From positions 1,240,001 to 1,304,000 of the forward strand of contig CP024912.1 of NCBI GenBank assembly GCA_002813895.1: a stretch of 64,000 bases of DNA, written 5' to 3'. This DNA comes from Cyanobacterium sp. HL-69 (GTDB taxonomy: Bacteria; Cyanobacteriota; Cyanobacteriia; Cyanobacteriales; Cyanobacteriaceae). The position numbers were made by a program, and so were the translations under genes. Below the pieces are notes generated by a model. It did no database searches and had not been told where the DNA came from. It was given only the letters and a program-made list of their open reading frames with translations. Shown here piece after piece: positions 12,775-16,912 of the stretch (positions are counted from its first letter, which is position 1; each line of letters starts with the position of its first letter).

Positions 12775-13683
12775 ATGAGTACACCTAACTTTCAAAAATT
12801 TTTTAAACCCCTTTTAGAAATTGCTTCTGATGACAAAGAACATTCTACAAAAGAAGCAAAAGAAATCTTGATCAATAAAATGGGATTAACCGCTGAAGAT
12901 TTACATGAAAAAGTAAGAAGTGGAGCAATGACAAAGGTTGATAACCGAATTTGGTGGGCAAAAAGTTATTTTGTTAAAGCAAAAGTCTTTCATTATCCTA
13001 AGCGTGGAATTTTTAAAATTACAGAAAGAGGGAAAGATTTATTAGCAAAAAAATATCAAGAAATAACTGTAAAAGAACTTCAGCAATATTCTGAATTTTT
13101 AGATTTTGTTACTCCTAAAAAGAATAAAAACAATGAAATATCTGACGTTCCTTTCACAGAAAAAGAGACTCCAGAAGAAATGCTTGAAAATGGTTATCAA
13201 GAAATTAGAAATGAATTAGCCGATGAACTTTTAAACACAATAAAAAGTAATTCTTATGATTTTTTTGAAAATTTAGTAATTGATTTGATGGTTCGTATGG
13301 GCTATGGTGGTTCGAGAGATGATGCGGGAGAATCTATTGGCAAAGTAGGTGATGAAGGAATTGATGGAATAATTAAAGAAGATAGATTAGGGTTAGATCT
13401 GATTTATTTACAAGCCAAAAAATGGGAAGGTACAATTGGAAGACCAGAAATTCAAAAATTTGTGGGTGCATTGCATGGAAAAAGAGCAAAAAAGGGAGTT
13501 TTCATCACTACGGGTGATTTCACTAAAACTGCTTTCGATTATGTAGAAAATATTGAGTCAAAAATTATTTTAATAGATGGCAAAAGTTTAGTAAATTATA
13601 TGATAGATTATAATTTAGGTGTTTCCATATCAGTCACTTATGAGATTAAGAAAATTGATAAGGATTATTTTTTTAATGATTAA
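12775..13683 (+). CDS. Mrr-type restriction endonuclease
   Basis: A 302-residue protein with two domains. Residues 1-105 form a winged-helix DNA-binding domain of the Mrr N-terminal type (PKRGIFKITERGKDLL). Residues 165-290 form the Mrr/PD-(D/E)xK nuclease domain, in which GDEGIDGIIKED supplies the Asp and YLQAKKW the Q-x-K part of the active site, followed by FVGALHGKRAKKGVFITTG. Mrr enzymes cut modified DNA as type IV restriction systems. No methylase or second subunit is adjacent. The gene is AT-rich and lies in a patch with antitoxin-like genes and an IS, which suggests acquisition. Confidence 0.88.
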   Translation: MSTPNFQKFFKPLLEIASDDKEHSTKEAKEILINKMGLTAEDLHEKVRSGAMTKVDNRIWWAKSYFVKAKVFHYPKRGIFKITERGKDLLAKKYQEITVKELQQYSEFLDFVTPKKNKNNEISDVPFTEKETPEEMLENGYQEIRNELADELLNTIKSNSYDFFENLVIDLMVRMGYGGSRDDAGESIGKVGDEGIDGIIKEDRLGLDLIYLQAKKWEGTIGRPEIQKFVGALHGKRAKKGVFITTGDFTKTAFDYVENIESKIILIDGKSLVNYMIDYNLGVSISVTYEIKKIDKDYFFND

Positions 13684-13855: not shown

Positions 13856-14086
13856 ATGGAAATAACAATTCGTGAACAATTACACCAACAAATTGATAAT
13901 TTACCTGATGAAATTGTTGAGAAAATAGCACAATTCACATTATCAATTACTAATGATTATGATATAAATATCGCTGAATACACTGATTGGCAGAAAAAAG
14001 AATGGCAGGAATTTTCGTTAAGTCAGTTTTTTTCAGAAGATAATGATATTGAATATTCTTTAGAAGATGCTCAGAAAACTTATTAA
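13856..14086 (+). CDS. small antitoxin-like protein
   Basis: A 76-residue acidic protein. The N-terminal segment (REQLHQQIDNLPDEIVEKIAQF) is a helix pair typical of small toxin-antitoxin antitoxins of the DUF2281/VapB-like kind. The middle (DWQKKEWQEFSLSQFF) and the acidic end would be the flexible toxin-binding part. It lies 172 bases after the Mrr gene and 47 bases before the HicB-like gene. No toxin of the PIN or RelE type follows it, so it is either an orphan or partnered elsewhere. The assignment rests on architecture, not a diagnostic motif. Confidence 0.5.
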   Translation: MEITIREQLHQQIDNLPDEIVEKIAQFTLSITNDYDINIAEYTDWQKKEWQEFSLSQFFSEDNDIEYSLEDAQKTY

Positions 14087-14133
14087 TGGGTTAGAAATAC
14101 AATATTAAAAAAAATAAGAGAGGGTAAATAGTT

Positions 14134-14355
14134 ATGAGTAAATTTAATTATACTGTCACTATTCAATGGAGTAATGAAGATAACTGTTTTGTTGTCTTTC
14201 TTCCTGACTTTAAAAATGAAATGCAACCCATTACCCATGGGGAAACCTATGAGGAAGCCTTAAAAAATGGACAAGAGGTTTTAGAGTTGATTATACAAGA
14301 GTACCAAGAGGATGGCAAAGATTTACCTCAACCTGAAACTTTTGTTTTTGCTTAA
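14134..14355 (+). CDS. HicB-like antitoxin family protein
   Basis: A 73-residue protein with the HicB-like partial RNase H fold: YTVTIQWSNEDNCFVVFLPDF, a central Gly/Thr-rich turn (HGETYEEALKNGQEVLELI) and a Pro-rich end (LPQPETF). A purine-rich AGAGGGTAAA precedes the ATG as ribosome binding site. HicB proteins usually sit beside a HicA mRNA interferase, but no HicA-like frame is visible on either side. The gene ends exactly where homology to the decayed symporter fragment starts. It also lacks the C-terminal DNA-binding domain of longer HicB proteins. Confidence 0.7.
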   Translation: MSKFNYTVTIQWSNEDNCFVVFLPDFKNEMQPITHGETYEEALKNGQEVLELIIQEYQEDGKDLPQPETFVFA

Positions 14356-14527
14356 AATTTAGCCCTCTTTATTTTCACCATTAGCTACGATTAAAAAAAT
14401 AACGGGCGATCGCCCTTATAACGAACATAACAATAAAGTATATAGTGGGAAGTATTGCAATTTGTGAATTATTTAATAATGTAGCAAAAGAGGCGATCGC
14501 AACGGCTAACATTTCATTAGATTTATA
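14356..14527 (-). pseudogene. decayed 3' end of a bile-acid/sodium symporter gene
   Basis: Read on the minus strand this stretch encodes LAVAIASFATLLNNSQIAIL and a further 25 or so residues ending YFFNRS, with a stop at 14381. It lines up with the last 45 residues of the intact symporter at 16913-17788 (TLAIAIATSATLLNNPQIAI and onward). Nucleotide similarity even runs past the stop, to about 14356. The upstream part of the gene is missing: the homology ends at about 14513, near the IS5-type element that starts at 14528. It is therefore a broken partial duplicate. Confidence 0.75.
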
Positions 14528-14582
14528 GAACCCATTTGGTATCTAGTAGAATATTGAGATGAAAACATAGAGAAATAGAAGG

Positions 14583-14879
14583 ATGGCATATTCTAGCAGT
14601 CTAAGTGATGAAGAATGGGAAGTAATCAAACCTCTGTTACCAAAAAAGAAACGAACTTGTCCACCAAAGTGGTCTAAAAGACAAATTTGGGATGGTATTT
14701 TTTATCAACTCAAAAATGGCTGTAATTGGTCTGATTTACCCAAGGATTTACCGCCTTATTCTACAGTTTACTGGCATTATAAAAACTGGAAAAAAGAGGG
14801 TATCTTTGAAATGGTGATGTGTGAGCTTCATAAGCAACTAAGGGAAAAAGTAAAAAAAAATCCACTTGGACTCGATTAA
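14583..14879 (+). CDS. IS5-family transposase, OrfA (upstream frame)
   Basis: A 98-residue frame matching the DUF4096-type N-terminus of IS5-family transposases: SSLSDEEWEVIKPLLPKKKR, then WDGIFYQLKNGCNWSDLP and YSTVYWHYKNWKKEGIF. This part binds the inverted repeats. Translation ends at 14877 unless ribosomes slip back one base on the run of nine A at 14852-14860. Slipping joins it to the downstream catalytic frame and gives a fusion of about 279 residues. Both frames are otherwise open and well preserved, so programmed frameshifting is more likely than decay. Confidence 0.85.
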   Translation: MAYSSSLSDEEWEVIKPLLPKKKRTCPPKWSKRQIWDGIFYQLKNGCNWSDLPKDLPPYSTVYWHYKNWKKEGIFEMVMCELHKQLREKVKKNPLGLD

Positions 14880-15421
14880 TAATCATTGATTCTCAAGCAG
14901 TACAAAATACTTGTAGTGCAGGAGTAGAGAGTAAAGGATTTTGTAGGTATAAACTCACCAATGGTATTAAAAGACATTTAGCAGTGGATAGTCTGGGATT
15001 TCCTTTTTTCACTTGTTGCACAAAGGCAAGTGTTTCCGATGATCGAGGATTAATCATGATGTTGAGTGAGAACATAGATTATTTTCGTGCCAAACCCATG
15101 AATGTTCATAAAATTACGATCCTCGTGGATTCGGGTTATCATCCTGATTTTATCATGAGGGAATTAGAAAAAGTTTATCCACAAATTGGAAAGAAAATTC
15201 GTATGGAAAAATCAGGCAAAATCTCTTCTGAACAAAAAAAATCAGAAGGAAAAAAAGGATTTGTGGTAGTCAAAGCAAGATGGATCATTGAAAGATCTAA
15301 TGCTTGGATGGAAAGATGTAAAAATTTGGTCAAAAACTTTGAAAGAACCTTATTCAACTCCACCCAAAAAGTTAACTTATGTTTTATTCGATTACTTTTA
15401 AAAAGACTCACTGCTTCCTGA
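14861..15421 (+). CDS. IS5-family transposase, OrfB (catalytic frame, reached by -1 frameshift)
   Basis: The -1 frame after the A run reads STWTRLIIIDSQAVQNTCSA, which supplies the first catalytic Asp (IIDSQ). The second Asp lies in ITILVDSGYHPDF and the Glu in ARWIIERSNAWMERCKNL, so the DDE triad is complete. The first ATG in this frame is only at 15059, inside the catalytic domain, so independent initiation would lose the first Asp; the natural product is the OrfA-OrfB fusion. The stop codon overlaps the first base of the right inverted repeat, as is common in compact insertion sequences. Confidence 0.85.
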   Translation, partial: STWTRLIIIDSQAVQNTCSAGVESKGFCRYKLTNGIKRHLAVDSLGFPFFTCCTKASVSDDRGLIMMLSENIDYFRAKPMNVHKITILVDSGYHPDFIMRELEKVYPQIGKKIRMEKSGKISSEQKKSEGKKGFVVVKARWIIERSNAWMERCKNLVKNFERTLFNSTQKVNLCFIRLLLKRLTAS

Positions 15422-15441
15422 GATACCAAATGGGTTCTATA

Positions 15442-15758
15442 AAGAAGAATAAGAGCGAAGATAATATTCATTTATGCAATACAGGTAAGGAAACATAGGC
15501 TCAATTTCCTGTAAAAATTGCCATGGTACATTTAACAATAAAAAGCAAAGAAAAAAATAATCATCTATAATGGAGGTCTATGCAAGGTTGTTAAACTGAC
15601 TCAACCAAGTAATCCCCACATTTAATAAATTCAATTTTCGGAAGGGTATTAAATTTAATAAAAAACGCAAATAATCCTTTCTGTTTTTTACCTCATCGAA
15701 AGAAAATAATAAATTAAACCGCTACAAAAAACTACTAAAAAAAATAATAGAAATAATT
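15442..15758. other. intergenic region with a possible small RNA
   Basis: About 317 bases between the IS and the BON-domain gene. No reading frame is supported. A TAATAT box near 15459 is followed by a stem AGGAAA / TTTCCT (about 15487-15510) that carries AGGAAACA, a motif also known from the cyanobacterial Yfr2 small RNAs. No terminator follows, so an RNA gene is only a weak possibility. Confidence 0.2.
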
Positions 15759-16610
15759 ATGAGTATTAGAGATAATCAAGAAATTTCCAGAAAAATATAT
15801 CGAGAATATACAGACACTGACGGAATTGTTCGCACCGAATACAAGGATATTAATGGCAACATTTATACAGAATATACCGATATTAACGGTAATTTTCACT
15901 CAGATCGAAAAGAGTTAATTGACGATAGATTGGTAGATGCCCATATTCAAGATGCACGAGTAGATAAAACAGTTGCACATATTGATAGGGCCGATAAAAA
16001 TACCTCTAAGGGTTTACTTATTGGTGTAATTGTCACTACCATAATAGCTTTAGTAGCAGGGGTAATCTACTTTTTAAATGATGCTAATAACCCTGAACCC
16101 GTTGCTATAGTGCCGATTCCTGCAGAAACAGCTGAGCCTGAGTCGATAGAAGTTGAGGAACAAGAAGCCATCCAAACAACCGCTACGAGAACAACTCCTG
16201 AACCTTCAAGTCCAGTAACTCCTGAATCAAATAATAATCCTCCTACAACGACAACAACGAATAATAATATAACCGTCACCCCTTCAGAGTCTAATCAAAA
16301 CCCTGCAGAAACAAATAATCAACCCCCCGCAGCTAACCCCACTCCCACTAACACGAGGCCTCAATCAACAGCAAATAATCCAGCCACACCTAAAAGCGAT
16401 GGCGATCTTAAAAATGAGATTGTGAAAAAGTTTCAGGATAATTTAGGAGATAATCAGTTAAATGTTGAGGTAAATAATGGCGATGTAATGATATCAGGGA
16501 TGTTGGAAACTCAAGCACAAGTGGAACAAATTCAACCAATACTTAAATCCGTTGAAGGAGTTAAGACAGTGAATATAATGGCTACCATCGAGCCTCAAAG
16601 GACAAATTAA
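15759..16610 (+). CDS. single-pass membrane protein with a C-terminal BON domain
   Basis: A 283-residue protein. Residues 16-48 hold three tandem 11-residue units (EYTDTDGIVRT, EYKDINGNIYT, EYTDINGNFHS). A membrane helix follows at about 82-105. Residues 110-210 are a low-complexity linker rich in Pro, Thr and Asn. The C-terminal 70 residues (LKNEIVKKFQDNLGDNQLNV onward, ending VEGVKTVNIMATIE) match a BON domain, a phospholipid- or envelope-associated module. The topology suggests a cytoplasmic repeat region and a periplasmic BON domain. A terminator follows at 16680-16705. Function is unknown. Confidence 0.8.
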   Translation: MSIRDNQEISRKIYREYTDTDGIVRTEYKDINGNIYTEYTDINGNFHSDRKELIDDRLVDAHIQDARVDKTVAHIDRADKNTSKGLLIGVIVTTIIALVAGVIYFLNDANNPEPVAIVPIPAETAEPESIEVEEQEAIQTTATRTTPEPSSPVTPESNNNPPTTTTTNNNITVTPSESNQNPAETNNQPPAANPTPTNTRPQSTANNPATPKSDGDLKNEIVKKFQDNLGDNQLNVEVNNGDVMISGMLETQAQVEQIQPILKSVEGVKTVNIMATIEPQRTN

Positions 16611-16679
16611 ATTAAGTTAAAGATTATAAAAACAATCACTTATTGAATCAAAAATTATGATGGTGCTAACTTAATATTC

Positions 16680-16705
16680 CTCGCCCTAAAAAAGCGAGAA
16701 TTTTT
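16680..16705 (+). terminator. probable terminator of the BON-domain gene
   Basis: CTCGC / GCGAG stem around a 9-base A-rich loop, then AATTTTTATTT. The stem is short, so confidence is moderate. Confidence 0.55.
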
Positions 16706-16746
16706 ATTTATTAGGGTCTGCGAAATCATCATATAATCCAGATTTA

Positions 16747-16839
16747 ATACCAAATCCTATTTAGATGGTATATTTATTTACTTGAAATTATTGAGATTGA
16801 TGATAGTTATTAGTCTACTTTTAATGTAGGATTTGGTAT
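16747..16839. repeat. 93-bp MITE-like element with 13-bp terminal inverted repeats
   Basis: ATACCAAATCCTA at 16747-16759 is repeated exactly in inverse orientation at 16827-16839. The interior is AT-rich and noncoding. Size and structure fit a miniature inverted-repeat element or a large hairpin. The flanks do not show a clear target duplication. It fills most of the 302-bp gap between the BON-domain gene and the symporter; apart from the terminator at 16680 nothing else is seen there. Confidence 0.45.
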
Positions 16840-16912
16840 AATAACATTTATGATACTTTTATAAAATAATTTAAGTAGCACAACATTTAGTTGATAATAT
16901 GATAATTTAGCT

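Follow-up and report, generated by a model that had tools for sequence, protein, structure and literature searches.

Two decayed pieces of a BASS-type symporter gene on either side of an IS5-type element in Cyanobacterium sp. HL-69

The DNA between a hicB-like antitoxin gene and a BON-domain membrane protein gene of Cyanobacterium sp. HL-69 probably holds, to judge from sequence comparison, what is left of a second BASS-type sodium symporter gene, a local duplicate that decayed and was then split by an insertion sequence (IS). The window analysed here is a stretch of 64,000 nucleotides on contig 1 (3.16 Mb); the genome (G000) comprises three contigs and 3.3 Mb in total. Our reading builds on the homology of two gene pieces to the symporter, their collinearity, the lack of coding constraint, the symmetry of the IS and the identical sister copies of the latter; from these we infer a local duplication and the order of events. 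Thus, a second symporter copy would have arisen by local duplication; the copy on the hicB side would have lost its function, drifted without constraint and shed its 5' third together with ~300 bp of its middle, while the neighbouring copy stayed intact; and the IS5-type element would later have transposed in the ordinary way into a TATA located between the pieces that survived. It counts against this explanation that the duplicated state was never seen intact in the relatives searched, and that the symporter tree gives the copy no definite place.

Table 1. Coordinates of the symporter pieces, the IS and neighbouring genes in the window
Feature	Position	Strand	Remarks
hicB-like antitoxin gene	14134..14355	+	PF15919 E 1.6e-6; converges on near piece
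Near piece, symporter pseudogene	14356..14518	-	symporter nt 724-872 with the stop region, plus ~9-12 nt of noncoding sequence 3' of it; nhmmer E 6e-27
TATA left of IS	14524..14527	.	target duplication or obligatory target
IS5-type insertion sequence, 910 bp	14528..15437	+	perfect 16-bp terminal inverted repeats; DUF4096 and DDE_Tnp_1
Transposase ORF A (DUF4096)	14583..14879	+	PF13340 E 5.2e-27
Transposase ORF B (DDE_Tnp_1)	14984..15421	+	PF01609 E 4.7e-7
TATA right of IS	15438..15441	.	flank of IS
Far piece, outer limits	15440..15655	-	symporter nt 256-459; looser local alignment, edges uncertain
Far piece, symporter pseudogene	15474..15598	-	symporter nt 300-414; indels; stops in all three frames; nhmmer E 2.6e-8
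BON-domain membrane protein gene	15759..16610	+	PF04972 E 1.3e-9; between pseudogene and intact symporter
Intact BASS/SBF symporter gene, 291 aa	16913..17788	-	PF01758 E 2.8e-39

The intact gene is a clear member of the BASS/SBF sodium symporter family (PF01758), scoring 135.2 bits where the cut-off is 24.3, and the pseudogene derives from such a gene, although it can no longer encode the protein. The piece next to hicB had been described in the initial annotation as a clear but diverged minus-strand copy of the last ~45 residues of the intact symporter. This is borne out: 131 of 163 columns are identical to the 3' end of the intact gene (80.4%) with one 1-base indel, a translated search gives 62% identity over residues 241-285, and the local score is 164, where 1000 Markov-shuffled fragments reach 34 at most. 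Also as described, the similarity runs past the stop codon into noncoding sequence, for ~9-12 bases up to the stop of the converging hicB, and the IS starts close to the other end of the homology, ~10 bases beyond it. The near piece is at about equal distance from the symporters of G000, G003 and G004 (80.4, 79.6 and 78.4% identity).

It had further been claimed that nothing similar lies beyond the IS. This proved wrong: a second symporter piece is present there, on the same strand as the near piece and collinear with it and with the symporter gene. The far half of the broken gene had been overlooked because it has drifted further. It was found with a nucleotide profile of four symporter genes, run in nhmmer without heuristic filters against 448,140 bases of target. 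The weakness of the match and its AT-rich composition (nhmmer bias 15.6) count against our reading; in its core, 81 of 113 aligned bases are identical (72%). Against the symporter, the far-side DNA reaches a local score of 80, attained by none of 200 shuffles (maximum 59); in an empirical control with 774 segments of the window (321 bp, both strands, symporter and near piece left out), the far-piece segment scored 80 and the runner-up 59. The first 250-300 bp of the symporter and the ~300 bp between the two pieces are gone from the copy. Both pieces would stem from one former gene. Such an origin predicts like identity, and the non-significant difference between the near piece (121/150 identical) and the far piece (81/113; Fisher p 0.10) is counted in its favour.

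Relative to the intact gene, the differences in the near piece fall almost evenly on the three codon positions (9/9/11, of 50 each); over nt 724-870, those of the functional symporters are 6/2/10 (G003) and 5/0/7 (G004). The broken copy cannot encode the full protein, in that its 5' part and middle are absent, the near piece carries a frameshift and the far piece has stops in all frames. From the even distribution over codon positions, which shows no coding constraint, we take the symporter remains to be an unconstrained pseudogene. They are like bacterial pseudogenes in general in being a disabled gene copy with even codon-position drift, indels and lost parts, and no feature was found that sets them apart from this class. 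As to origin, the abstract of a paper on bacterial pseudogenes stresses failed transfer (PMC522871); here, the origin may be a local duplicate or a transfer. All told, we see a duplicated transporter gene that decayed in the way usual for bacteria, within an interval undergoing rearrangement, and that received an IS late on.

Thirty genomes including the own one were compared, among them the four other genomes of the genus (G001-G004). A symporter match occurs in 13 of the 30, and only the own genome has it in two places. The initial annotation had proposed to look in relatives for a full second symporter; none of the 29 has two full copies, so that the support for a duplication comes only from relics, and a short relic of ~45 bp did turn up in the corresponding interval beside alaS in G003 (E 5.4e-4; its score is 62, and the best of 736 control segments reached 50). 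There it is accompanied by a hicB 5' stub and an intact antitoxin/PemK pair. The intact symporter of G003 lies ~1.05 Mb from alaS, and the last 67 bp of hicB are joined to its 3' end; this junction matches window positions 14289-14518 in one alignment, at 80.6% over 232 columns. In G004 (L052), the order is alaS, hicAB, a broken antitoxin/PemK pair, a hicB 3' stub, a 103-aa ORF, the intact symporter and a DUF4335 gene. Candidate symporter relics in the G004 spacer (L052 13387-13604, 13731-14082 and 14136-14581) were rejected, since the best score, 46, stayed below the null maximum (48) and was equalled or exceeded by 3 of 200 null segments. G002 has hicAB beside alaS without a symporter there; its sole match (L054 2580-2861) is elsewhere and covers the first 84 residues. 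The G002 gene has suffered a large internal deletion, its first part being joined, by eye, to a short stub of the C-terminus; this loss in the genus is an independent one. Outside these genomes, a scan of genome contigs turned up 33 loci at 37-47% identity, which were left aside, as none bears a cyanobacterial name; in plasmid records, matches to the symporter stay under 60% identity.

The hicB junction in G003 lends some weight to a different origin, which we nevertheless consider rather unlikely. In this version, hicB and the attached symporter 3' end would have arrived jointly, by recombination from another strain in which hicB converges on the symporter, the near piece being a hitchhiker and no local duplicate having existed. 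The 232-column alignment spans this junction, and related hicB genes are widespread in the family. However, the far piece, lying in order beyond the IS, argues that more than a hicB-linked tail was present. Furthermore, grouping of the pseudogene with G003 (p 0.035) or with G004 (p 0.027) is disfavoured over 263 columns, in a test that is post hoc and has few columns, though the donor might be an unsampled one. Over the full 873 columns, the same groupings are disfavoured more weakly (p 0.049 for G003 and 0.057 for G004, again post hoc). Within the 263 columns, pairing of the pseudogene with G000 and placement outside G000, G003 and G004 fit equally well. The G003 symporter had itself been considered as the orthologue of the decayed copy, given the shared hicB junction and the first raw identities; the symporter tree does not support this, in that G003 joins G004 better, if weakly, and the grouping of the copy with G003 has the p of 0.035 given above.

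We next turn to the IS, which the initial annotation had offered as a possible agent of the truncation. IS5-family elements are recognised by their size, terminal inverted repeats, two ORFs and short AT target. The window element resembles those with a split transposase (DUF4096 plus DDE_Tnp_1) in all these respects and differs by its constant TATA on both sides. Its transposase is a DDE enzyme of the IS4/5 type. ORF A ends just after an A run, and a frameshift there could join it to ORF B. Eleven copies were examined, namely the window copy and ten others; seven near-full-length copies elsewhere in the genome show 100% identity along the length matched, and another three show 90-93%. TATA is found at both ends in 10 of the 11 copies and could be a duplication or part of the ends; the remaining copy (L103, 93% identical) was missed by the exact end pattern. 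A search of plasmid records for the IS (near mode) gave no match. Because its copies are near-identical genome-wide, whereas the pseudogene has drifted by 20-28%, the IS is probably recent and most likely the last to arrive, long after the pseudogene had decayed.

Of the earlier description of a broken duplicate interrupted by an IS5-type element, the duplicated and IS-split copy stands; the notion of a deletion of the remainder by the IS is unsupported, because more of the copy lies beyond the element, and that description gave the IS too much weight as a possible cause. Recombination between two IS copies, or an IS-adjacent deletion, could still have removed the middle of the second copy, and the gap in the pseudogene does coincide with the IS position within ~10-40 bases. 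This is a coincidence if the IS was uninvolved and counts against viewing it as a late passenger. The TATA on both sides fits simple insertion, and would also remain after recombination between two copies. We regard a causal role of the IS as unlikely all the same: the near-identity of its family marks it as recent, against a pseudogene that has drifted by 20-28%, the element is symmetrical with symporter sequence on both its sides, and the pseudogene has also lost its 5' part, away from the IS. The locus is thus a clear example of a truncated gene whose adjacent IS probably came late, as a passenger, and did not bring about the truncation. Its meaning beyond this locus is little.

Returning to the local duplication, its age can be approached through the tree. 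The symporter tree is in no clear conflict with alaS distances, and from the placements given above the duplication would be old, either near the base of the three-genome group or early on the branch of the window genome; the G003 relic speaks for a duplication that preceded the split. With a shared ancestral array hicAB-antitoxin-PemK-hicAB converging on a symporter, the stubs of the three genomes would all be explained. A variant with an ancestral tandem symporter pair, of which sister lineages each lost a different member, appears quite improbable. In detail, and no more probably, the own genome would have kept the DUF4335-side copy with the hicB-side copy decaying, and G003 would have kept the hicB-side copy, moved by ~1 Mb with its hicB stub, the other copy dwindling to the 45-bp relic. 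Synteny allows this, but the gene tree leans against it.

That the likeness to the symporter arose by chance, in AT-rich DNA with many GCGATCGC repeats, is hardly credible. A further hit of the fragment in the own genome (L003), 37 bases long with 86% identity and located within a phosphoglucomutase-type gene, seems to be just such a match around a GCGATCGC repeat and was set aside as chance, but the shuffled fragments already refute this for the near piece, and the nhmmer E-values (6e-27 near, 2.6e-8 far) speak against it for both.

The interval between alaS and the symporter is one with a turnover of toxin-antitoxin genes and of their stubs. It holds shuffled toxin-antitoxin pieces, including hicAB and hicB stubs (window 13856-14355; L052 12947-14135; L087 6293-7117). 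A 76-aa presumed antitoxin and a PemK-type toxin in this interval are intact in G003, and the toxin has been lost in the window. The window hicB is an orphan with only a hicA tail; by comparison with G004, the last ~27 bases of hicA are left upstream of it.

On the other side of the pseudogene lies the BON-domain gene, for which G001-G004, the four other genomes of the genus, gave no match. It has relatives of 54-56% identity in another genus of the family and is a candidate acquired gene. No symporter relics were found in the window spacers at 16611-16746 and 16840-16903. The ~93-bp element at 16747-16839 has 13-bp perfect inverted ends and looks like a MITE; there are six other copies at 77-98% in the own genome and several in G001. 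The ends of this element are similar to a portion of the IS end. Finally, an Mrr-type restriction endonuclease gene (PF04471) lies beside alaS at window 12775-13683, with a 78% DNA match elsewhere in G003.
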